This document shows, piece after piece, positions 142 through 47,526 of a stretch of 47,526 bases of DNA; position 1 is the stretch's first letter; each line of letters begins with the position of its first letter. The notes under the pieces were generated by a model. The model saw only the letters and a list, made by a program, of their open reading frames with translations. It did no database searches and was not told the origin of the DNA. The stretch is from a virus. The stretch lies in the IMG/VR virus record IMGVR_UViG_3300017605_000337, positions 1-47,526 of that record. One strand, 5' to 3'. A program made the translations under genes and the position numbers.

Positions 142-313
142 GGTAGGTCCGCTGCCGGTCATCACCTACGGGGCGACCAGCGGCGACACGACTTACCTCG
201 TCAGCTACTTCAACCCGCCCATCTTCATAGACCCGGAAGTGGACAGGGCTGGAGCGGAAGCCGCGATGGAGCGGATGCGGGCTAGCTACCAAGCCCGCTG
301 GCACGTCGGCTAG
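50..313 (+). CDS. Small protein with twin-arginine-like signal sequence
   Basis: 87 aa, last gene of the plus-strand early block. It begins MNRRGFLSG, an RR-x-F-L pattern like a twin-arginine leader, followed by an Ala-rich hydrophobic stretch (about residues 8-20) and a short mature part of about 65 residues. Short phage proteins with such leaders are often seen but have no settled role; Tat export is inferred from the motif only. Its ATG overlaps the stop of the upstream 56-aa gene (ATGA) across the assembly junction, so the pair is probably translationally coupled. Its stop TAG overlaps the stop of the convergent gene in a shared CTAG. A partial second copy of the gene lies at 47435-47526. 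Confidence 0.8.
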   Translation: MNRRGFLSGLLSAAVAAAARIYPASLPVLPKVGPLPVITYGATSGDTTYLVSYFNPPIFIDPEVDRAGAEAAMERMRASYQARWHVG

Positions 314-7665: not shown

Positions 7666-8631
7666 CTAGACGATCCTGCTGTAGAGCGCGTCAGGGCGGG
7701 TCGCGCCGGGGATCTGACCGCTGATGTAGTCGAGGTTCATGTGCTGGCGATTGAGCCAGTCACGGTCCACGGTGCTCGCCGCGATCTGCAAAGAGGCGGA
7801 CTGGAGCGGGGCCGCCTGCGCGACCTGTTGGGCACCTTGCGGAGCGCCCTCCGCACCGCCACCCATCCCACCGGGAGACTGCTGCCCGAGCATGGAGGGA
7901 GCACCTTCGGCTCCACCGGGCTGCTGGACACCCGCCTGCGCAGACCCAGCGCCTGAACGCGCCCCGCCGGCAGCCAGGGCATTGTCGCCAGCCCCGATGG
8001 GGTTGAAGCCAGCAGGCTGTGCGCCAGGGCTCCCCAGACCGGCTCCGAGCACCTGAGCGCCTGCCCCTGCCGCGCCAGCGCCACCGCCGCCCGCCAGCCC
8101 GCCAAGGATGGTCCCGGCTGCACCGAGCGCACCGCCAAGCATCGCCATCTGGCTTGCCTGCTTGGCTTCCTTGCGCGCCTGCCGCGACTCGGCATCCCGC
8201 TTCTCCGCAAAGAAGTCCGGTCGCTCCAGACTGTTGGCGATGTCGAGTTGCATCGCGCCCCGGTTCTGGAGCAGGTTCGCGGCAGCGCCAGCCGCGCCAC
8301 CAGCCCGGTAGCCGCCGAGGGTAGACAGCGCCTGCTGATTGCTGCCCAGCGCGTCTTGGAAGTAGCGGTTCTTGGCTTCCAGGTACAACTGCTGGGAGCG
8401 CCAGTCGCCTTGGATCGCCTGCTCCGCGGTCGGGGCACGGCCACCCGGCATGAAGGTGTTGGGATCCCAGCCGCGGTTCAGGAACTCATCCTGCGCCGAC
8501 AGCGTGCCCTGTAGCTGGTTCTGCCGCCGCTGACGCTGCTGGTCTCCATAGCGGTCGCCCGCAAGGGAGTTGGCGATCTCGGACCCGCCCAAGGTGGCAA
8601 TACCCGCCGCAATACGACCCCATCTACCCAT
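7666..8631 (-). CDS. Ala/Gly-rich internal virion protein
   Basis: 321 aa. The N-terminus MGRWGRIAAGIATLGG is a glycine-rich amphipathic segment of the kind that opens many small podovirus internal core proteins. A Gln/Arg-rich region (about 28-65) is followed by an Ala-rich helical region and a Gly/Ala-rich, low-complexity stretch (about 160-285) that could insert into a membrane. The last 35 residues become polar and aromatic. It is the first of three consecutive internal-virion candidates and begins nine bases after the methyltransferase stop. No enzymatic motif is visible. Confidence 0.65.
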   Translation of the reverse strand: MGRWGRIAAGIATLGGSEIANSLAGDRYGDQQRQRRQNQLQGTLSAQDEFLNRGWDPNTFMPGGRAPTAEQAIQGDWRSQQLYLEAKNRYFQDALGSNQQALSTLGGYRAGGAAGAAANLLQNRGAMQLDIANSLERPDFFAEKRDAESRQARKEAKQASQMAMLGGALGAAGTILGGLAGGGGAGAAGAGAQVLGAGLGSPGAQPAGFNPIGAGDNALAAGGARSGAGSAQAGVQQPGGAEGAPSMLGQQSPGGMGGGAEGAPQGAQQVAQAAPLQSASLQIAASTVDRDWLNRQHMNLDYISGQIPGATRPDALYSRIV

Positions 8632-8640
8632 GTTCGTAGC

Positions 8641-9195
8641 TCACAACTTGACGAGTCTTGCGACCCAGTCGTAGACCGTGTTCCAGTTCTCTTGGAAGCG
8701 CCGCGCCTGCGCCTCGGGGTGGAGCGCGCCTAGCTCCACCGGCATCGTGTGGTTGACCTCGATGCCAAAGTCACACTGGCAGAGGTAGTGACCCAGCTTG
8801 TTCAGGTCGCGCCACTGCTTGTTGAAGTAGTAGAAGCTCTCCGCGACGAAGAACCGACGGTGCGTCGGGTCTTGGAATCCCCGGTTGCTGCGGGCGTTGG
8901 GGACGATGATCTTGAACTCACCGCCCTTCTTGAGCACCCGCCACGCCTCGTCCATGAAGGCGCAGAGCCGGTCGCGACCGTCTTCAAGGTAGTCCGCAGG
9001 GATGTGCTCCAAGAAGTGGCTGGAGTGCAGGGCTTCGACGCTGCCGTCCGCCCAAGGCCACGGAAACTGGAACAGGTCGACCTTGTGCTTCGCGTTGGCG
9101 GCGAACTTGTCCACGCCCTCATAGCCATCGGCAGGGGTCTCCCCACAGCCAAGGTCGAGGCGAAGGAGCGTGGGAGCTACGGCGACATCTACCAT
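8641..9195 (-). CDS. Class I SAM-dependent methyltransferase
   Basis: 184 aa. The start is ATG 9195, one base after the upstream stop (TGACATG); an in-frame start at 9234 would overlap the glycosyltransferase gene. Near the N-terminus LRLDLGCGETP is motif I of the Rossmann methyltransferase fold (SAM-binding glycine loop). HSSHFLEHI lies where motif IV is expected, and LKKGGEFKIIVP is the typical post-motif strand region. The length fits a bare catalytic domain. Phage proteins of this type next to glycosyltransferases and fibre genes are often thought to modify virion sugars or proteins; the substrate is not evident. Adjacent coupling with the glycosyltransferase suggests they act in one pathway. 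Confidence 0.85.
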   Translation of the reverse strand: MVDVAVAPTLLRLDLGCGETPADGYEGVDKFAANAKHKVDLFQFPWPWADGSVEALHSSHFLEHIPADYLEDGRDRLCAFMDEAWRVLKKGGEFKIIVPNARSNRGFQDPTHRRFFVAESFYYFNKQWRDLNKLGHYLCQCDFGIEVNHTMPVELGALHPEAQARRFQENWNTVYDWVARLVKL

Positions 9196-21099: not shown

Positions 21100-21108
21100 T
21101 GGCGGATG

Positions 21109-21138
21109 GCGCCCGCTGCCATCTCTGACAGCGGGCGC
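21109..21138 (-). terminator. Strong hairpin after capsid gene (attenuator)
   Basis: Perfect 10-bp inverted repeat (GCGCCCGCTG / CAGCGGGCGC) with a 10-base loop, in the 50-base gap downstream of the capsid stop. No U-run follows on the minus strand, so it is more likely a partial terminator or a 3'-end stabiliser that raises capsid expression above downstream genes. Confidence 0.75.
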
Positions 21139-21149
21139 TACAGGGCGGA

Positions 21150-30397: not shown

Positions 30398-31140
30398 ACC
30401 TTGGGAGCGACGGGCACGCTCTCACGGCGAGCGCGAGCGACGAACCAGCCGAGCCACCGACCCTGCATGTCGGTCACCTGCCGACCGCTCTCGTCGTAGT
30501 GGATGCCGGTCTTCTCATCCACGGTGATGCGGATGCCGGACTTCTGGATCCACTCGTTGACCTGAGCCTCATTGTGCGGCTGCTTGCCGTAGCGACCGGG
30601 CTTCTTCTTGACGACCGGCTCCTTGGTGAAGTCGGGGCGGGTCTCGTCCTCGACCGGCTTTACGGGCTCACTGGGCGTCGCCGTCTCGATGACGGTCTCC
30701 AGCGGCGGTACGTTGGTTGGCACCTGTGACAACGCGGACGGCTCGGGCTTGGGCGGCGGGTCACGCTGCTCCACGGTGTTGAGCTTCTGCATGTCCACGA
30801 TCAGCTTGCGCAGTTCCGCAATCTCGGCGGCGAACTGGGCAGTGGACTCCGCGCGCTGGTGCTCCAGCATGGCGGTCTCCTTCTTGGAGAGGTCGCTGGG
30901 CAGACCATCGCGGATGTGGCGGACGATGCGGTCAGCCGCTTCCTCGACATCGGCGCTGGTGTCCATGTAGTGCTGCGCCTGCTTCTGTGAGACCCAGCCG
31001 AGGGTCTTGTCGATGCGCGGGAACTTCTGGATGCGCGAGACCAGTCCGAGGAACTGCGGGTCGATCCCCTTGACCGTGACCATGAATCCGCGTCGGATGC
31101 ACGCTTGGACGATGTCGTCCATCGAGTAGGTTTGAGCCAT
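30394..31140 (-). CDS. Protein upstream of terminase (possible small terminase)
   Basis: 248 aa, first gene of the late block, overlapping the large terminase start. The N-terminal 80 residues are helical (MDDIVQACIRRGFMVTVKG, VEEAADRIVRHIRDGLP). A coiled-coil stretch (AQFAAEIAELRKLIVDMQKL) follows, then a Pro/Glu-rich linker (about 120-180) and a compact basic C-terminus with GRWLGWFVARARRES. Small terminases are usually DNA-binding plus coiled coil; the position fits but no HTH is evident, so the call is uncertain. Its ATG (31140-31138) overlaps the divergent gene's ATG within CATG. Confidence 0.65.
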   Translation of the reverse strand: MAQTYSMDDIVQACIRRGFMVTVKGIDPQFLGLVSRIQKFPRIDKTLGWVSQKQAQHYMDTSADVEEAADRIVRHIRDGLPSDLSKKETAMLEHQRAESTAQFAAEIAELRKLIVDMQKLNTVEQRDPPPKPEPSALSQVPTNVPPLETVIETATPSEPVKPVEDETRPDFTKEPVVKKKPGRYGKQPHNEAQVNEWIQKSGIRITVDEKTGIHYDESGRQVTDMQGRWLGWFVARARRESVPVAPKV

Positions 31141-31372
31141 GACAGATCAGGGTAGCAAGTCAGCAGACCAGGAGCAAGACCAGCAGACCAGCCTCCCTTC
31201 TCAAGAGCAGGTGCTCGGGGTGGTGTGGTCGCTGCTGCGGAAGGCGGTGGATGGGGAGCAGGTGGACCATCCCGCATGCGCGAAGTATGCGGAGTTGCTA
31301 TTGAAGAACCGCCCCAAGGCTGCGGCTGGAATAGACCCCGCTCTCTTGACGGCGATTGAGCAGGCGCGCTAG
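31139..31372 (+). CDS. Small protein divergent from the terminase block
   Basis: 77 aa. The first 20 residues are Gln/Asp/Ser-rich (KSADQEQDQQTSL). A helix with SQEQVLGVVWSLLRKAVDGEQV and AKYAELLLKNRPKAA follows, and a short tail ends TAIEQAR. ATG 31139 shares two bases with the divergent late-gene start in CATG, so the promoters of each must lie in the other gene. The fold could be a small DNA-binding or adaptor protein; no motif decides. Tandem repeats within the 5' end are listed separately. Confidence 0.65.
   Translation: MTDQGSKSADQEQDQQTSLPSQEQVLGVVWSLLRKAVDGEQVDHPACAKYAELLLKNRPKAAAGIDPALLTAIEQAR
31154..31191. repeat. Two ~19-bp tandem repeats near the divergent start
   Basis: AGCAAG-x-CAGCAGACCAG occurs twice in tandem, with the 11-base CAGCAGACCAG exactly repeated at 31161-31171 and 31181-31191, 20 bases apart. 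Two turns of helix between copies puts them on one face of DNA, as in binding-site iterons. They lie just inside the divergent gene, at the start of the packaging operon, so a protein or packaging-site role is possible. Confidence 0.55.
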
Positions 31373-31414: not shown

Positions 31415-31468
31415 ATGCCGCTTGTCCTTTTGTCGGCCATGAAACACGCTCGACCCTTACACCTGCTT

Positions 31469-31518
31469 GGCGGACCGCTGTGTATCCCCTCCCTCTAACT
31501 CCTGTTGCGCGGTCCGCC
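31469..31518 (+). ncRNA. Hairpin with CUAACUCC in its loop (candidate anti-SD RNA element A)
   Basis: Perfect 10-bp stem GGCGGACCGC / GCGGTCCGCC around a 30-base pyrimidine-rich loop. On the plus strand the loop contains CTAACTCCTG at 31495-31504, complementary over 10 bases to CAGGAGTTAG before the gene at 34446, and TCTAACTCCT (31494-31503), complementary to AGGAGTTAGA before the gene at 34134. Both targets contain the Shine-Dalgarno sequence. No start codon follows CAGGAGTTAG at usual spacing on the minus strand here, so it is not a minus-strand RBS. Pairing and function are inferred. Confidence 0.5.
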
Positions 31519-31535
31519 GAGCTTCTTCCCTTCGC

Positions 31536-31760
31536 ATGCGTCGCATCTGCATCCTGGTGCAAGACCAGTCAAAGCTGGTGATCCCGACGGAGGTGCGTCT
31601 GCTAGCACAGGTCGGGGAGGAGAGCTTCGTCCAGTTCGAGAACGTCGCGTTGGCGGCGTTGCACCATGACCGGATCGTGAAGGACGGGAAGGAGCATCGG
31701 CTGAACTACCGGTCGCTCTACACGTCGGCGCTGGAAGCGATCACCTGCCCGCAGGACTAG
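31536..31760 (+). CDS. Small unknown protein
   Basis: 74 aa from ATG 31536; a TTG frame start at 31467 falls in the hairpin and is rejected. MRRICILVQDQSKLVI opens with alternating strands, then a helix (EVRLLAQVGEESFVQFENVALAALHHDRIV) and a basic YRSLYTSALEAI. No family is recognised. No strong RBS is visible, which lowers confidence. Its stop TAG overlaps the convergent gene's stop in CTAG (31757-31760). Confidence 0.55.
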   Translation: MRRICILVQDQSKLVIPTEVRLLAQVGEESFVQFENVALAALHHDRIVKDGKEHRLNYRSLYTSALEAITCPQD

Positions 31761-32014
31761 GAGAGGTTTCGGATGGCAAGGACTGCAACTCGCGGGATGG
31801 TGAGTTCACCGCGTCCGCATGTCCGAACGTTCTCGTCATCATCGCCACTGAGGTGCGGGCAGATGGTGATGGCTTTCTTCGACTCGGCGATCACCCAGCC
31901 GACCGACTTGCAGTTGAGGATCTGGTTGTTCTCAGCGAGTCGATCGAGAGCGCACCAACCTTCGGAACCATGTGAGTCCACCCATTCGACCATCACGAGT
32001 TTGCGCTTCGGCAT
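31757..32014 (-). CDS. Conserved small phage protein
   Basis: 85 aa from ATG 32014. VEWVDSHGSEGWCALDRL, then CKSVGWVIAESKKAITICPHLS and GRGELTIPRVAVLAIRNL match a pattern I know from many small phage proteins of unknown function: a small beta domain in which a W-D-S-H-G turn and an S-V-G-W-hydrophobic strand are conserved. It is likely a small barrel that binds something in host or virion. It starts ten bases after the secreted protein, so the two may be co-transcribed. Confidence 0.75.
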   Translation of the reverse strand: MPKRKLVMVEWVDSHGSEGWCALDRLAENNQILNCKSVGWVIAESKKAITICPHLSGDDDENVRTCGRGELTIPRVAVLAIRNLS

Positions 32015-32024
32015 GCCGCGAATG

Positions 32025-32537
32025 CTACTGCCGGCGCAGCGAGAAGGCTCGGCTCGTTCCCCGATCCCCGATCGCCTGCACCGCGAAGTCGATCCCGTGA
32101 GGCAGCAGTTCCATCGGCACCTCTAGGATCCAGTCTGCGGCGTAGCCCCGTCGCCACGGCAGGCTGCTGACGTCCACGATGTTGGCGGTGCCCAGCCACC
32201 AGAGTCCTAGAGGGTGCGAGAGTGGGGTGTTGGTCCAGGTCCCGACGCACAGCATGGCGGTGTTGCGGAACTGGAGCTTCCAGTGTGTGCGATCCCACCA
32301 GCACTCCAGTTTCTCGGCACCCGGCTCGCTTCTGAGCATGAGCATGGGGGCGATGCTGATGTTCTGCTGGCAGGGATCACCCGGACCTTGGTAGCCGCCC
32401 ACGCTCGGTTCCGCCCACAGGTCGAAGGTGCGAGCCGGCGTCCGCTTCCTGAGCCATCGCCACGTCTCGGGATCCGCCCCGACCGCCACCACGAACAGCA
32501 GCAGGAAGACCGCCACCGCCTGTACGGCTGACCGCAT
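32025..32537 (-). CDS. Exported or membrane-anchored unknown protein
   Basis: 170 aa from ATG 32537 (an upstream in-frame start at 32597 lies in structured DNA and lacks a clear RBS). The N-terminus has one hydrophobic segment, AVQAVAVFLLLFVVAVGA, like a signal peptide or anchor, followed directly by DPETWRWLRKRTP. The rest is rich in Trp, Arg and Pro with possible strands (WKLQFRNTAMLCVGTW, AADWILEVPMELL) and three Cys. No family is recognised; it may act at the cell envelope. The gene belongs to a minus-strand pair in the mosaic region. Confidence 0.62.
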   Translation of the reverse strand: MRSAVQAVAVFLLLFVVAVGADPETWRWLRKRTPARTFDLWAEPSVGGYQGPGDPCQQNISIAPMLMLRSEPGAEKLECWWDRTHWKLQFRNTAMLCVGTWTNTPLSHPLGLWWLGTANIVDVSSLPWRRGYAADWILEVPMELLPHGIDFAVQAIGDRGTSRAFSLRRQ

Positions 32538-32796
32538 GGACCTGTCTTGTACAGGAAAGCGGGTCGCGAGTCTCGCCCACCCGCGACCCACAGGCACACC
32601 ATGTCGTTCGTGCTGCTCTTCTGCACTCCAGACCGCTGCATGCTAGCGCGGGATCGCAGGAGCGCAAGTGGAACGGAGGGGCGACTCCTGCGGCGCGTGG
32701 CTGGCCGTGTCACAGCCCTTTGGACTCGCGCTGGGTGCAGGGGCGGAATAGCTAGCTCCGCCAGCCCCTCCGACCCACATGGTAGCACATTCGTTG
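32538..32796. other. Structured intergenic region with five inverted repeats
   Basis: 259 bases without a convincing gene. Perfect inverted repeats are CCTGT/ACAGG (32541-32555), GGGTCGCG/CGCGACCC (32561-32568 and 32582-32589), CGCAGGAG/CTCCTGCG (32655-32662 and 32685-32692), GGCTG/CAGCC near 32700-32717, and GGCGGA/TCCGCC near 32743-32764. None is followed by a convincing U-run. They look like a mixture of 3' ends and operator sites. I could not place a clear promoter here. Confidence 0.6.
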
Positions 32797-33075
32797 CTAA
32801 AGTTCACGATCCAAGGCTTCAACAAGCGCGTGAGCAGCCGTCGGTATTGAGTCCGACTTGTAGATGGCAAAGCTCCACCGCCATCTGGTCTCCTTCTCCG
32901 TCAGGAAGGCAGCGAACAAGCGCTTCCCATCCCGATCCTCGAACTCGTAAACCTTCCCCATCCACTGCCCGCCCGTGAGGGCACTGCTGCCATCCCACTC
33001 CCCGCACGCCCTCACCTCCCCGTACAACTCCTCCACCCATCCCTGAACCTCTGCCAACGTAGCCGCGCTGCTCAT
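32797..33075 (-). CDS. Small unknown protein with possible leaderless start
   Basis: 92 aa. Helical N-terminus (LAEVQGWVEELYGEVRACGEW), then strands around MGKVYEFEDRDGKRLFAAF and TRWRWSFAIYKSDS, and a final helix (TAAHALVEALDREL). No family is recognised. There is no Shine-Dalgarno before ATG 33075, but a TATAGT box ends only seven bases upstream, so the transcript may start at or next to the ATG. Confidence 0.62.
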   Translation of the reverse strand: MSSAATLAEVQGWVEELYGEVRACGEWDGSSALTGGQWMGKVYEFEDRDGKRLFAAFLTEKETRWRWSFAIYKSDSIPTAAHALVEALDREL

Positions 33076-33082
33076 GCGTTCG

Positions 33083-33112
33083 ACTATACACAGCAGCAGA
33101 GTCTCGGTACAA
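33083..33112 (-). promoter_or_regulatory. Candidate sigma70-like promoter
   Basis: On the minus strand TTGTAC (33112-33107) and TATAGT (33088-33083) are separated by 18 bases. Four of six positions in the first box and five of six in the second agree with consensus. It would start RNA at or near the ATG at 33075. Confidence 0.45.
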
Positions 33113-33119
33113 GCAGAGC

Positions 33120-33425
33120 ATGGCGATGCACGGCACCCGGAAGACCAAGAAGTCGAAGAAGCGACTGCGCACGAGCCCGCTCCACGCCTCCATGACAGTC
33201 GATCCCTGGCCCGCCATCCACGCCAAGATCGACGCCGACATCATCCTCGGTCGCATCGACCCCACCATGCGCGCTCTCCTCACCGCCATCTACCTGCACG
33301 GATACGGCGTCTCCGGCACCGCAAAACTGCTCTCGATGCGCCGCCAGAACATCCGCAAACTGCTCGCCTCCATCCGGGCAGAACTACGCACTTCCAAGGA
33401 AGTTTGCCGCGAAGAGCACCACTAG
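33120..33425 (+). CDS. Basic helix-turn-helix protein
   Basis: 101 aa. The first 20 residues are very basic (GTRKTKKSKKRLR). A helical C-terminal domain contains TMRALLTAIYLHGYGVSGTAKLLSMRRQNIRKLLASIRAELR, which reads as an HTH similar to sigma region 4 or to antiterminator-like regulators ('LHGYGVSGTAKLLSM' as turn and recognition helix, shown in parts). It is divergent from the gene at 33075. It is a good candidate transcription regulator for the phage. A second ATG two codons in is equally possible as start. Confidence 0.7.
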   Translation: MAMHGTRKTKKSKKRLRTSPLHASMTVDPWPAIHAKIDADIILGRIDPTMRALLTAIYLHGYGVSGTAKLLSMRRQNIRKLLASIRAELRTSKEVCREEHH

Positions 33426-33442
33426 GTGCCACTTCTGGCCCT

Positions 33443-33454
33443 CTCTATATAGAG
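33443..33454. promoter_or_regulatory. 12-bp AT-rich palindrome and adjacent inverted repeats
   Basis: CTCTATATAGAG is a perfect palindrome between convergent genes (33426-33528 has no gene). Further on, CCAGT/ACTGG flank GTAC repeats near 33488-33506 and GGTC/GACC flank a short loop next to them. A protein-binding site is likely; no strong U-run terminator is visible on either strand. Confidence 0.5.
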
Positions 33455-33528
33455 CCCTCGCGCAGGCGCAGGCGTCTGAGAGCTTCCAGTACAGTACCGA
33501 CTGGTCGTCGTGACCGGAAGCATCCGCC

Positions 33529-34017
33529 TCAGGGCATCCCGCTCATCAACGCCACCACCCGCTCACTCGGCTCCTTCCCAGCCAGCCGACACACCTCAAG
33601 GTACGCTCGCAACGCCTCCCCGCCCTTCGCCTCAGCAGCCTTCTGACGGCGACGGTACTCAGCGCGACTGACCAGCGGCGAACCATCAGGAGCCTCCAGC
33701 AGGCCATCAGCGCCCACAGGGAAGGGATTGGAAGGAGAGGGGGAGCCCAGTCTGGAATCCTTGGGCCCCCCCCCGCGTTCGATGCTCCCCCCGGGGGTGG
33801 GGGCTGGTGGCTCAAGTGCGAGTGGCGTGTCAGCCAGGAGCGCTTCCAGCTTGGCGAGGTCGGACGCATGCAAGCCCATCGCCTCAAGGCTACGGCGAGA
33901 GCGGACGGATGGGGGCACATGCAGTATATTGCCACTCCGAGCCGCATCCCTAGCGACGGTTAGCAGTCGGCTAGAGTCCTTCCCCCGCTGGGCGAACGGT
34001 GTCCGTATTCCTGACAC
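33529..34017 (-). CDS. Unknown protein with homopolymer-rich linker
   Basis: 162 aa from GTG 34017; the start is not well supported because no SD precedes it, and ATG 33879 is an alternative. A Ser/Arg-rich N-terminal part, a short helix (DLAKLEALLADTPLAL), a Pro/Gly linker encoded by runs of C and G, and a helical C-terminus (EYRRRQKAAEAKGGEALRAYLEVCRLAG) are seen. The 9-C tract at 33766-33774 and the C6-G5-T-G5 block at 33787-33803 could slip during replication or be sequencing trouble spots. No family is recognised. Confidence 0.55.
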   Translation of the reverse strand: MSGIRTPFAQRGKDSSRLLTVARDAARSGNILHVPPSVRSRRSLEAMGLHASDLAKLEALLADTPLALEPPAPTPGGSIERGGGPKDSRLGSPSPSNPFPVGADGLLEAPDGSPLVSRAEYRRRQKAAEAKGGEALRAYLEVCRLAGKEPSERVVALMSGMP

Positions 34018-34101
34018 TATGGAAGAATAGTGCGATCAGAAAGAAAAACAAGAAAGACTGTAGGGATTCGCTGTCTCGGACGATATAGGTATGCAAGCGC
34101 T

Positions 34102-34130
34102 GGCGCTAGTGCCTGGCGCGAGGAGTTAGA
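34102..34130 (+). promoter_or_regulatory. Leader and RBS of the gene at 34134
   Basis: The 116 bases before the gene include an A-rich tract (34035-34055), the near-palindrome GGCGCTAGTGCC (34102-34113) and AGGAGTTAGA (34121-34130), with its AGGAG four to eight bases short of ideal spacing but strong. GGAGTTAG here is shared with the 34446 leader and is the complement of two hairpin loops elsewhere. Confidence 0.6.
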
Positions 34131-34133
34131 CCG

Positions 34134-34361
34134 ATGCGTGACTTGACCGACAAGCAGTTCCGTGCCGCTATGGAGCGGAACGGATGGACCAAACCCGAAT
34201 ACCAGTTCCTTGGCTACTGGCAGCACCGCAGCGGGCTGCACGCGAGTGCATGGAACTACCCGACGCTGCGCGCTGCCCTCAAGGCGCTGATCGCAATGGG
34301 CGAAAAGCGCGACCGCGAGGCAGAGAGGGCGCGCAAGGCGACCACGGACAAGGGTAGCTAG
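34134..34361 (+). CDS. Small unknown protein
   Basis: 75 aa. DLTDKQFRAAMERNGWTKPEYQF begins with a helix and is typical of small phage proteins in which such a N-terminal 'D-x-x-F-x-x-A-M-x-R-N-G' element is conserved. A strand-turn region (LGYWQHRSGLHASAWNYP) and a basic helical tail (LRAALKALIAMGEKRDREAERARK) follow. It has a strong RBS (AGGAG). No function is known to me. It is the first gene after the HTH protein region on the plus strand. Confidence 0.75.
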   Translation: MRDLTDKQFRAAMERNGWTKPEYQFLGYWQHRSGLHASAWNYPTLRAALKALIAMGEKRDREAERARKATTDKGS

Positions 34362-34411
34362 CCAGCCGCGCCCTCGGGAGCCGCAATCCCGGACATTGCC
34401 GTACCCGCGGC

Positions 34412-34443
34412 GCTGGCGAATGCCAGCAACGGGCAGGAGTTAG
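34412..34443 (+). promoter_or_regulatory. Leader hairpin and RBS of the gene at 34446
   Basis: GCTGGC-GAAT-GCCAGC (34412-34427) forms a 6-bp stem with a tetraloop just before CAGGAGTTAG (34434-34443), whose AGGAG is the RBS. The leader resembles that of the gene at 34134 (shared GCGCTGGCG and GGAGTTAG). Its SD is complementary to the loops at 31495-31504 and 35662-35669. Confidence 0.6.
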
Positions 34444-34445
34444 CC

Positions 34446-34853
34446 ATGAAAGAACCATCGGACGTTGCCATCTACGCCGCCCGCATCATGCGCGCGTATC
34501 CAAGCCTCTCCGCCTACAGTGCTGCCATGCTCGCTACCGAGCTTGCGGCTATCGAGCGGGCGCAGGAATGGCATGCCTTGCGAGCGTGCAATGGGGACTA
34601 CCGGAAGCACGTAGCCGGCAAGATGGAGCACGATCCCGACGCGGAAGCGATGGCGGGGAAGCGCATCGAGAAGCGGCTAGCGGTGTGGCATCGCGCGCTT
34701 GGGCTTCTGCTCATTTCCTCGCGCGGGGAGGATTCCAAGCGCGCGACCCGAACGCCGGAATGGTGGGCGGCGTCCGCAACCGTCATCCTGGCGGGCGACC
34801 CGCGCGGGCGCTGCCTGACCGCGCAGTTTCCGGGGGAGGCACCGCAGCCATGA
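34446..34853 (+). CDS. Unknown helical protein
   Basis: 135 aa, starting with ATG just after a strong RBS. Helices dominate (VAIYAARIMRAYPSLSAYS, MLATELAAIERAQEWHAL, KRIEKRLAVWHRALGLLLI). The C-terminal part has a small strand-like section (PEWWAASATVILAG). One Cys near 48 and another near 123 do not form a metal motif. It overlaps the next gene by ATGA, starting a five-gene run that ends at 35649. No family is recognised. Confidence 0.7.
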   Translation: MKEPSDVAIYAARIMRAYPSLSAYSAAMLATELAAIERAQEWHALRACNGDYRKHVAGKMEHDPDAEAMAGKRIEKRLAVWHRALGLLLISSRGEDSKRATRTPEWWAASATVILAGDPRGRCLTAQFPGEAPQP

Positions 34854-35104
34854 CCACGAAAGCCAAGAAATCGAGCGCACCCGTGTGCGTGTTCTGCCGT
34901 CGCTCCGGCGCCGGCGTACAGTTCGCAATCTTCAATCCCCGCTTTCAACCGTTCGGTACGGCGTGCGTGGATTGCGAGCGCGACTTGCCACCCGGAACGC
35001 CAGCACCCGATGAAGGTTGGCATTCCTGCGCAGGCAAGCCAAACCAGCTTCCGGGCAAGCCCTGCGGCATCTGCGGCAAGATGAAGCATGCGAGGCAACC
35101 ATGA
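34850..35104 (+). CDS. Cysteine-rich zinc-binding protein
   Basis: 84 aa from ATG 34850 (ATGA overlap); a longer frame from 34568 is a shadow. It carries CVFC, CVDC and, near the end, CGIC, so three CxxC pairs plus a lone Cys give capacity for one or two zinc ions, as in small zinc-ribbon phage proteins. Its N-terminus MTTKAKK is encoded by a 23-base sequence repeated exactly at the start of the next gene. Function unknown. Confidence 0.75.
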   Translation: MTTKAKKSSAPVCVFCRRSGAGVQFAIFNPRFQPFGTACVDCERDLPPGTPAPDEGWHSCAGKPNQLPGKPCGICGKMKHARQP

Positions 35105-35310
35105 CCACGAAAGCCAAGAAAGCACCCGAACGCTTCACCCTTACCGTCAAGCTGGACGATGACTACATGGCGAACCATCTTTCGATCGGTTTGCACCACA
35201 TCTTCCAAGAAGTGCACTTCCGTATCGTCCGCGAGGCGGCTGGCGTAGGCTGGGAAATGACCCTGCGGGACGAGAACGGCAACCGCATCGGGGAGGCGAA
35301 GATCGAATGA
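35101..35310 (+). CDS. Small beta-rich protein with duplicated N-terminal sequence
   Basis: 69 aa from ATG 35101 (ATGA overlap). Starts MTTKAKK like its neighbour. The rest looks like a small alpha/beta domain (FTLTVKLDDDYMANHL, VHFRIVREAAGVGWEMTLRDENGNRI). No Cys pairs, unlike the preceding protein, so only the start region is shared. No family is recognised. Confidence 0.72.
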   Translation: MTTKAKKAPERFTLTVKLDDDYMANHLSIGLHHIFQEVHFRIVREAAGVGWEMTLRDENGNRIGEAKIE

Positions 35311-35432
35311 CCCCGCCCCTGATCGCTGGCGGACAAGGCAAGACCGCTACTGAAGTCCGCGAGTCCGCCCGCGTGCTCACCTTCCTACTCATCTGCGCCG
35401 TCACTACCGTGGCGGCGCTTCTGATCCTCTGA
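35307..35432 (+). CDS. 41-aa single-span membrane peptide
   Basis: 41 aa from ATG 35307 (ATGA overlap). A polar N-terminal half (GGQGKTATEVRES) is followed by a hydrophobic segment LTFLLICAVTTVAALLIL at the C-terminus. Such tiny tail-anchored proteins occur in phage accessory regions. Coupling with both neighbours supports it as real. Its function is not evident; a membrane-acting host-takeover peptide is one guess. Confidence 0.6.
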   Translation: MTPPLIAGGQGKTATEVRESARVLTFLLICAVTTVAALLIL

Positions 35433-35442
35433 GGCACCTACC

Positions 35443-35649
35443 ATGACCGATACCAACACAAGAATCGCCCGCCTACGTAGCGAAGCCGCTATCGCAGGTG
35501 ACTATTGGATGGTCAAGGTGTGCGAACTGGCTCTAGGACGCATCGACGCACCCAACCATCACACCATCGAAGCCCTGCGCACACCAGAGAATGCACGGCG
35601 CGAATGCCTACGCATCCTTGCCCATGCCAAAGCACAAGAAGACTCCTAG
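35443..35649 (+). CDS. Small unknown protein
   Basis: 68 aa. Helical and charged (TRIARLRSEAAIAGDYWMVKVCELALG), then PNHHTIEALRTPENARRECLRIL, typical of short phage accessory proteins. The stop codon TAG forms the first base pair of the hairpin described next, so the gene's 3' end and the RNA element overlap. The start follows the preceding stop by ten bases; SD is weak (GAGGCACC). Confidence 0.7.
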   Translation: MTDTNTRIARLRSEAAIAGDYWMVKVCELALGRIDAPNHHTIEALRTPENARRECLRILAHAKAQEDS

Positions 35650-35722
35650 CGCGCGGCGGTCCTAACTCCCCGTCGCGTGCGGGCGCTGGTCGCCGGGGCA
35701 ACCTGGGCCAGCGCCCCTTTTT
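35649..35722 (+). ncRNA. Loop-presenting hairpin plus intrinsic terminator (candidate 3'-UTR sRNA, element B)
   Basis: Two hairpins in tandem. The first (35649-35680) has an 11-bp stem with two G-U pairs and exactly a 10-base loop, UCCUAACUCC. The second (35681-35716) is a 9-bp GGGCGCTGG/CCAGCGCCC stem followed by CTTTTT: a good intrinsic terminator. The loop complements GGAGUUAG in the RBS of genes at 34134 and 34446. This looks like a terminator-ended small RNA released from the 3' end of the operon it could regulate. Function is inferred. Confidence 0.6.
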
Positions 35723-35739
35723 CGTTTAGGGTAGAAGCC

Positions 35740-35926
35740 ATGAACGACCCCATCCTACGCAACATCTGCCCCAAGTGCGGCGAGTCAGGCCTGTAGCGAC
35801 CTCACGTCTCCCGAGAAGCCACCCGAACAGGCGGCAGCGGACCGGGAAGCCTTCTTGGCGTGGTGGCGCAACCGTCCCGCTAGCCGGCCCCAGGATCGAC
35901 GATCGCCACCCCCGCTACCTAGATAA
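35740..35926 (+). pseudogene. Small gene broken by (or using) a +1 frameshift
   Basis: ATG 35740 opens MNDPILRNICPKCGESGL and stops at 35796. If one base is skipped at GGC-C just before that stop, the frame continues C-S-D-L-T-S-P-E-K-P-P-E-Q and a helical DREAFLAWWRNRPASRPQ until TAA at 35924-35926. The composition of both parts suits one small Cys-containing protein of about 60 aa. Either a single-base indel (mutation or sequencing) or a programmed shift is possible. 35927-36007 contains nothing I recognise except a C-run. Confidence 0.4.
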
Positions 35927-36007
35927 CCCCCCCATCGAGATCGTCGCCGCTGCCCGTGTAGGTGCGCGTCTCAGCGGCTGCCAGAATCAAAGCCACGGGG
36001 TGGACCA

Positions 36008-36346
36008 CTATCCGCCACCGCTGCCCTCGCCTTCCTTCTTCTTGGTCTCGGGCTTGTAGCCCAGCATCCGTTCGACGGCATCGCTGACCGCTACCATGCG
36101 GCTCGCCGTGTAGGCGTCGGCGCAGATGCGGCGGACGATCGCTAGCACCGCCTCGGGGATGTCCTGCGCGTACGACAGCCGCACGCCGGCATCGGCGGTG
36201 CTGACGATCACCAGCTTCCCGCTACCCTCGCCGTGGTGGAACGTCATCCTCCAGAACGAGTCCCCTTGAAAGGTCTGAGTCAGGAACAGGTTGCGGCTAG
36301 CGAGGTTGCGCGAAAGCCACGCCTGCACGTTGGTGGCACCGCTCAT
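36008..36346 (-). CDS. Unknown protein
   Basis: 112 aa from ATG 36346 (ATGA overlap with the upstream gene). N-terminal MSGATNVQAWLSRNLAS is followed by strands (LFLTQTFQGDSFWRMTFHHG, GKLVIVSTADAGVRLSY) and a helical part (PEAVLAIVRRICADAYTASRM). The tail is Lys/Glu/Gly-rich. No family is recognised; the pattern suits a small alpha/beta fold. It is paired with the 80-aa gene and may share its promoter. Confidence 0.68.
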   Translation of the reverse strand: MSGATNVQAWLSRNLASRNLFLTQTFQGDSFWRMTFHHGEGSGKLVIVSTADAGVRLSYAQDIPEAVLAIVRRICADAYTASRMVAVSDAVERMLGYKPETKKKEGEGSGGG

Positions 36347-36585
36347 GTGCGCATCCTGCTCTTGGCGCGAACAAGCTCACGCTTCCACGGACCGGTGAGC
36401 CAGTAGGCGAACAACCCGATCGGGTCGCGGGCGCGCACCTCGGTTGAGTTGGCCCAGCGCCAGAGTTCTAAGAGGTCAGGGGGAGTGCAGCCACCAGCGA
36501 CAAGCTCCTTCGCCTTCGCGATGCGGTCCTCGGTACGATACCGGCTGCGGTCCCGGTAGCGATACTGCGCAAGGATCGCCACCAT
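36343..36585 (-). CDS. Small basic helical protein
   Basis: 80 aa from ATG 36585, which has AGGAG six bases upstream. A longer in-frame start at 36870 would read through the G-quadruplex region and is not favoured. The protein is basic and helical (YRYRDRSRYRTEDRIAKAKEL, PDLLELWRWANSTEVRARDP, KRELVRAKSRMRT), possibly nucleic acid-binding. No family is recognised. Confidence 0.65.
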   Translation of the reverse strand: MVAILAQYRYRDRSRYRTEDRIAKAKELVAGGCTPPDLLELWRWANSTEVRARDPIGLFAYWLTGPWKRELVRAKSRMRT

Positions 36586-36610
36586 CTGCTTCTCCTGCGC
36601 CGAAGGCGGC

Positions 36611-36724
36611 GTCCCTCCCTCATTCTGGGCTCCGATCTCTCCTCTCCCTGCCCCTCCCCGCTGGCATGCTGCATGCTCTGTACTCCGGCGCGCTTCGCGC
36701 TCTGTACCAGAAAGAGGGAGGGAC
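36611..36724. repeat. Long inverted repeat with C/G-rich arms
   Basis: Arms at 36611-36628 (GTCCCTCCCTCATTCTGG) and 36707-36724 (CCAGAAAGAGGGAGGGAC) match at 17 of 18 positions with a 78-base spacer. The spacer has GCTCTGTAC twice and the small hairpin GCGC-GCTTC-GCGC. It lies in a gene-free stretch (36586-37066). It may be a cruciform or protein site. Confidence 0.6.
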
Positions 36725-36752
36725 GAGCGGAGCGAGACCCTACCCAGAAGGA

Positions 36753-36775
36753 GGGAGGGTCTTAGGGAGGGAGGG
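36753..36775 (+). other. G-quadruplex motif
   Basis: Five GGG tracts (36753, 36757, 36765, 36769, 36773) with loops of 1, 5, 1 and 1 bases satisfy the canonical G4 pattern. Two more GGG tracts lie in the upstream arm (36716-36722). The plus strand carries the G-rich side. It is located close to the divergent promoter boxes, where it could affect transcription or replication. Confidence 0.65.
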
Positions 36776-36835
36776 CGGTGGCTGTCAAGCCGAAAAATCT
36801 TCCCGATACGATCTTGGGACTCTTGCGGCTGGTCG

Positions 36836-36864
36836 TTGCCAAAGCTGCCGTCAGGCTGTATACT
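36836..36864 (+). promoter_or_regulatory. Near-consensus sigma70 promoter
   Basis: TTGCCA (36836-36841) and TATACT (36859-36864) are separated by 17 bases; each box differs from consensus at one position. It points right, with initiation expected near 36871. The genes on both sides run left, so its product would be a short RNA or antisense RNA. A TTGACA box on the minus strand (36788-36783) could start a leftward promoter, but its -10 region is poor. Confidence 0.65.
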
Positions 36865-36870
36865 GGGCAT

Positions 36871-36930
36871 GAGTTAGAACCTCAGCCCGGCGCGCGAAGT
36901 GATGGTCGCAGCCGGGCTTATTTCGTTCTA
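36871..36930 (+). ncRNA. Short structured RNA candidate (element C)
   Basis: Directly downstream of the promoter, the RNA would begin near GAGTTAGAAC. An outer TAGAAC (36875-36880) pairs with GTTCTA (36925-36930). Inside, AGCCCGGC (36884-36891) pairs with GCCGGGCT (36911-36918), and GCGA pairs with TCGC, around an 8-base loop. A T-rich TTATTTCGTT follows the main stem, like a terminator. No coding gene runs this way. The 5' GAGUUAG matches the loop complement of elements A and B, so it could be a sponge or a third partner; that role is inferred. Confidence 0.5.
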
Positions 36931-36977: not shown

Positions 36978-37000
36978 CCATGGGCGCGTCGCAGTCGGAT

Positions 37001-37022
37001 ATCCGGCCGGATCCGGCCGGAT
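37001..37022. repeat. 22-bp perfect palindrome
   Basis: Two overlapping ATCCGGCCGGAT units give a 22-bp perfect palindrome. Such tandem self-complementary sites often bind a dimeric or tetrameric protein; no restriction or recombinase function is evident here. Confidence 0.75.
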
Positions 37023-37040
37023 GGCATGGCGTGTGGGTGT

Positions 37041-37064
37041 GTGTGGTACCACGTGGTACCACAC
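37041..37064. repeat. 24-bp perfect palindrome
   Basis: GTGTGGTACCAC followed directly by its inverted copy: two GTGGTACCAC palindromes in tandem with matching flanks. It ends two bases before the stop of the 531-aa gene. Each 10-bp unit is itself palindromic, as in operators for tetramers. Confidence 0.75.
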
Positions 37065-37066
37065 GG

Positions 37067-47271: not shown

Positions 47272-47438
47272 GCCTCGACGACGAACCGCGCGTCCGAGTG
47301 AGCAAGGGCGACAACCGCTGCCGCTGCGGCGGTCACCACGGCGGCGCGAAGTCCAACCGGCACCACCACGGCACGCTCGTCAAGATGCTGCGACGGTTCA
47401 CGCGACGGGTGATGCGTGCGATCATGGGGCGACCATGA
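47268..47438 (+). CDS. 56-aa basic Cys/His protein spanning the assembly junction
   Basis: 56 aa from ATG 47268. Cys18 and Cys20 in NRCRCGGHHGG with neighbouring His residues (also RHHHG at 31-35) make it a likely small metal-binding peptide. The C-terminal half is very basic (KMLRRFTRRVMRAIMGRP), so nucleic acid or membrane binding is possible. Its last bases overlap the start of the Tat-like gene (ATGA). Positions 1-53 repeat its 3' end. Confidence 0.65.
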   Translation: MSLDDEPRVRVSKGDNRCRCGGHHGGAKSNRHHHGTLVKMLRRFTRRVMRAIMGRP

Positions 47439-47526
47439 ACCGCCGCGGCTTCCTATCCGGCCTCCTCTCCGCAGCCGTCGCCGCAGCAGCGCGCATCTAC
47501 CCGGCGAGCTTGCCGGTGCTGCCGAA
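47386..47526. repeat. Terminal redundancy, right copy
   Basis: Exact second copy of positions 1-141. The window thus closes into a circle of about 47,385 bases; the 92 bases from 47435 are the 5' part of the twin-arginine-like gene and are complete at 50-313. Confidence 0.95.

Follow-up and report, generated by a model that had tools for sequence, protein, structure and literature searches.

A possible 3′-end feedback hairpin in a phage operon, with two loops complementary to the same two Shine-Dalgarno sites

Phage genome and operon organization

The window analysed here is the whole record of 47,526 bp (G+C 64.5%), which probably represents a complete genome because it carries a 141-bp direct terminal repeat at 1–141 and 47386–47526. 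The genome encodes a recognisable terminase, portal and major head protein, and the terminase shares at best ~25% protein identity with those of annotated phages (Zobellviridae and cyanophage podoviruses). The gene set is our own codon-model prediction; the tests below use its 66 starts and 19 non-coding hairpin loops. At 33120–33425, a 101-aa protein shows a weak likeness to sigma-70 region 4 or a helix-turn-helix (E 0.02, under the family cut-off).

Six plus-strand genes occupy 34134–35649, and from their spacing we infer that they form one transcript. The first gene (34134–34361) encodes a predicted three-helix protein of 75 aa, and the second (34446–34853; 135 aa) is the first in a run of 4-nt-overlap starts. 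The remaining genes (34850–35649) start at 34850 (84 aa), 35101 (69 aa), 35307 (41 aa) and 35443 (35443–35649, 68 aa). Since 34850, 35101 and 35307 each begin in a 4-nt overlap with the preceding gene, the operon has two main uncoupled starts, at 34134 and 34446. Gene 35443 starts 10 nt past a stop; its start may be reinitiated or may use a GAGG of its own. Family and defence model searches with the operon proteins returned nothing convincing. The structure model of the 34134 protein is fair (pLDDT 78), with no structural match and no convincing fold, and that of the 34446 protein is poor and of low confidence.

Two hairpins with a common loop octamer

Hairpin 2 (35649–35680, plus strand) is located directly 3′ of the last operon stop codon and consists of an 11-pair stem and the 10-nt loop UCCUAACUCC. 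A sequence-only reading of this DNA had described an 11-bp stem with a loop of exactly 10 bases, which is what we find: two of the 11 pairs are G-U, and the loop is exactly TCCTAACTCC. The hairpin is sandwiched between the stop codon (35647–35649) of gene 35443–35649 and a predicted, intrinsic-terminator-like GC-rich hairpin with a CUUUUU tail (35681–35722, plus strand), which directly follows it and closes the operon; the pattern scan missed this terminator, as the loop limit of the scan is 8 nt. Hairpin 2 together with the terminator folds with a z of −3.8 on the plus strand vs −1.4 on the minus strand, and the octamer in its loop has a predicted unpaired probability of 1.0 in contexts of 88–508 nt.

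Hairpin 1 (31465–31522, plus strand) is flanked by genes 31139–31372 and 31536–31760, and its 30-nt pyrimidine-rich loop contains CUAACUCC. The 10-bp stem reported earlier is present as 10 perfect pairs, but the full plus-strand stem is longer and reaches 14 pairs when a G-U pair is included. The fold z is −3.7 on the plus strand vs −1.9 on the minus strand, and the octamer is predicted to be unpaired with a probability of 0.82. The better folding of both hairpins on the plus strand, which is partly due to G-U pairs, favours RNA structures on the strand proposed earlier. Gene 31536 lacks an SD, and its ATG lies 13 nt past the end of hairpin 1.

The octamer CTAACTCC occurs in both loops, at 31495–31502 and 35662–35669 on the plus strand. 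Its complement, GGAGTTAG, forms the plus-strand SD sites of genes 34134 (34122–34129) and 34446 (34436–34443), each of which is complementary to loops 1 and 2. The sequence-only reading had seen the motif only at these places in the intergenic DNA that it scanned, and the whole window bears this out, with four occurrences in 47.5 kb and no further copy; the mean count in shuffled sequence is 0.42, and four was never reached. The complementarity to loop 1 is 10 nt at each SD region, as was claimed, and that to loop 2 is 8 nt. The matched SD regions are exactly those of the two main uncoupled starts. An octamer common to two SD sites is not itself odd, because GGAG is an ordinary SD and the start context TAGCCATG is common here, where it is found at five genes (866, 7663, 34446, 41119 and 42033); 43 octamers are common to at least two translation initiation regions (TIRs). 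The core heptamer CTAACTC, which is antisense in the loops and sense at the SD sites, has all five of its copies in non-coding DNA and is the top-scoring dispersed 7-mer for non-coding bias (binomial p 2.4e-7 uncorrected, ~2e-3 when corrected for ~8,200 7-mers). The sequence pattern is real and unusual.

The fifth CTAACTC copy, at 36871, coincides with the start point of a promoter-terminator unit. A sigma-70-like promoter, TTGCCA-17-TATACT (36836–36864, plus strand; 10/12 matches), precedes a predicted short RNA (36871–36925, plus strand) whose 5′ end is GAGUUAGA and which ends in a GC hairpin and then a U-rich tail. GAGTTAG at 36871 had been assigned to the predicted 5′ end of a short RNA, and it does occupy that place, after the promoter and before the GC stem and U-rich tail at 36884–36924. 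A gene at 36343–36870 with its ATG at 36870, in which CTAACTC would serve as spacer, was rejected in favour of a better SD and start at 36585. At 36612–36775, CCCTCCC/GGGAGGG repeats of both orientations cluster in a mostly non-coding stretch, and the 9-mer CCCTCCCTC of this cluster recurs in the hairpin 1 loop at 31487.

Predicted pairing with the initiation regions

The loops were run against the leaders, as had been suggested, with a simple ungapped duplex model plus accessibility over the 66 starts. For both hairpins, 34134 and 34446 rank as the top two of the 66 after accessibility correction, with energies of −10.4/−9.8 and −7.6/−7.1 kcal/mol; the SD sites of both genes are predicted to be partly paired themselves (0.14–0.56 unpaired). 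The earlier proposal that the loops repress translation at these SD sites remains plausible and gains from arguments that it had not used, namely the position in the operon, the plus-strand folds and the target ranking; the pairing itself stays a prediction. The predicted 36871 RNA could form 8 pairs with loop 1 (−6.9 kcal/mol) and 7 pairs with loop 2 (−5.4 kcal/mol); these 7–8 pairs and the promoter-terminator prediction weakly suggest a role of this RNA as a sponge.

Relatives and known RNA families

In alignment scans, the closest records are two IMG/VR phages, L091 and L092, with 44–45% terminase identity, and L011 with 37%. The structural genes of all three are syntenic with those of this phage, and in none of the three is the octamer present or are the operon proteins recognisable. 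Phage and plasmid records contain no DNA relative, scans with single proteins (terminase, capsid, and the 34446 and 35101 proteins) gave no relative, and the genome collection holds no relative of the terminase or the 34134 protein. A match to the 34134 protein in L096 was dismissed as chance, as it spans 12 residues in a reading frame that lacks a long ORF, on a contig of 42% G+C. No homologue of the operon proteins and no homologous operon turned up in the collections searched. No Rfam family matches at the gathering threshold, and none is plausible at E≤5.

In L091, a hairpin lies directly after the likely homologue of gene 31139, and its loop differs from that of hairpin 1. A separate loop core, TCAGAGA, is common to hairpins at 21107–21140 in this phage, ~168–200 (minus strand) in L091 and ~8627–8660 (minus strand) in L092, which have different stems; the L091 copy comes after the likely homologue of gene 31139.

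Discussion

The match between hairpin 2 and the two uncoupled starts of its own operon is the strongest functional argument in these data. We tentatively favour, at somewhat below an even chance, negative feedback by a 3′-UTR hairpin resembling that of OppZ and CarZ, with hairpin 1 as a possible second copy. Hairpin 2 and the adjoining terminator would constitute a 3′-UTR regulatory RNA, either as part of the operon mRNA or as a fragment released from it, and the exposed loop UCCUAACUCC would pair with GGAGUUAG where genes 34134 and 34446 have their SD sites. Such pairing would shut ribosomes out of the two main uncoupled starts and limit the operon in proportion to the full-length transcript made. 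Hairpin 1, on a different transcript, has this seed too, with 10 nt of complementarity, and could repress the operon in trans. The existence of these RNAs, their pairing and the lowered translation are all inferred from sequence. A fuller phage RNA circuit, in which two transcript-end hairpins on different transcripts, with one octamer seed, shut the two main uncoupled starts of one operon and combine self-feedback, cross-talk from the packaging side and an SD-like short-RNA decoy, appears quite unlikely.

Coincidence is nearly as likely as feedback. Hairpin 2 would then serve 3′-end protection or termination, hairpin 1 would be either a terminator or simply a strong hairpin between genes, and the pyrimidine-rich loops would match by chance two SD sites composed of GGAG and a TTAG spacer. 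Several of the component events are indeed common: an 8-nt match of some loop to some TIR arises in 96–99% of simulated loop sets and is trivial, single loops matching two TIRs number 5 vs 5 and 4 in reversed and complemented controls, and two loops with a common octamer appear in 22–34% of simulated sets. The frequent TAGCCATG start contexts point the same way, as does the choice of the motif once it had been noticed, which makes the chance statistics post hoc; they are also in part mutually dependent. Against coincidence stand the wholly non-coding distribution of CTAACTC and the joint event of two loops, one octamer and the same two TIRs, which occurred in 2e-4 to 1.2e-3 of simulations; it occurred 0 times in 872 kb of other phage loci, each at least 8 kb long, a weak control with only 78 non-coding hairpins. 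The complementarity of hairpin 2 to the initiation regions of its own operon, 8 nt at two TIRs, likewise exceeds chance (1e-4 to 2.8e-3, post hoc). A random 10-nt loop reaches at least two of the six operon TIRs in 0.01–0.09% of draws, shuffles of the hairpin 2 loop reach both entry points in 0.28%, and random loops of hairpin 1 length reach both entry TIRs in 0.005–0.14%.

A dispersed motif recognised by a phage or host protein ranks third and is unlikely; it would be the site of an RNA-binding translational repressor or a DNA operator, or the copies would be what remains of a short duplicated element, GAGTTAG, in some cases with ACC after it. The dispersed, non-coding copies fit this explanation, as do the ACC triplet within one base of the core in three of the five copies and the position of the 36871 copy at a promoter start point. 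However, the core is not palindromic, and two of the copies are antisense and both sit in strong hairpin loops, an arrangement that a simple sense-strand site does not need. The version in which all copies descend from one duplicated leader, raised in the sequence-only reading, finds no support in the flanks, which by eye have little in common beyond the short core and show no longer homology. It is very improbable that hairpin 1 is instead a cis-acting 5′-UTR element of gene 31536, opened or closed by the 36871 RNA through its 5′ GAGUUAGA, with the SD matches being secondary. The SD-less ATG 13 nt beyond the hairpin and the 8 pairs of the 36871 RNA with loop 1 (−6.9 kcal/mol) would agree with such an element, but the short RNA is itself a prediction, it matches the loop over a shorter stretch than the SD sites do, and hairpin 2 is left unexplained.

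The feedback reading has its closest counterpart in OppZ and CarZ of Vibrio cholerae, autoregulatory sRNAs derived from 3′ UTRs, which are Hfq-linked RNase E products established by compensatory mutations (PMC7398697). As in those systems, the element is located between the last stop of an operon and an intrinsic terminator and is complementary to starts of its own operon (oppB and carA there; PMC7398697). Unlike them, it belongs to a phage operon, holds its seed in a closed 10-nt loop, matches two starts and is known here as a sequence prediction; the resemblance of hairpin 2 to OppZ and CarZ is therefore one of design, and we do not claim membership of their class. The NfeR1/alpha-r14 ('cuckoo') sRNAs of alpha-proteobacteria carry three copies per RNA of a general anti-SD seed, CCUCCUCCC, and likewise present one unpaired anti-SD seed in multiple hairpins that cover initiation regions (PMC10746234). 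In contrast, the seed here is CUAACUCC, addresses two SDs only and is borne by one hairpin per transcript on two transcripts; the alpha-r14 motif CCUCCUCCC is absent from loops 1 and 2, which have no Rfam model match. A pyrimidine-rich hairpin loop facing an SD site is also seen in the C-rich loops of Staphylococcus aureus RNAIII and in E. coli CyaR, but these are separate sRNA genes that act in trans on host mRNAs, and the likeness noted here is one of design (PMC2837412). For the proposed 36871 sponge, the analogue would be SprY, a sponge RNA for an RNAIII loop covered in a review of phage-derived RNAs (PMC12197685); what speaks for a sponge here is only the 7–8 pairs and a predicted promoter-terminator unit.

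If the feedback reading is true, it would extend operon 3′-end RNA feedback from bacteria to a phage, and a single seed on two transcripts directed against the same operon would offer compact expression timing without a protein repressor. It also offers a search rule, in which the loops of operon-end hairpins are checked against the starts within their own operon. Downstream of the predicted short RNA, at 37000–37065, two perfect palindromic blocks, ATCCGGCCGGATCCGGCCGGAT and GTGGTACCACGTGGTACCAC, follow each other directly and are possibly origin-like or protein-binding.
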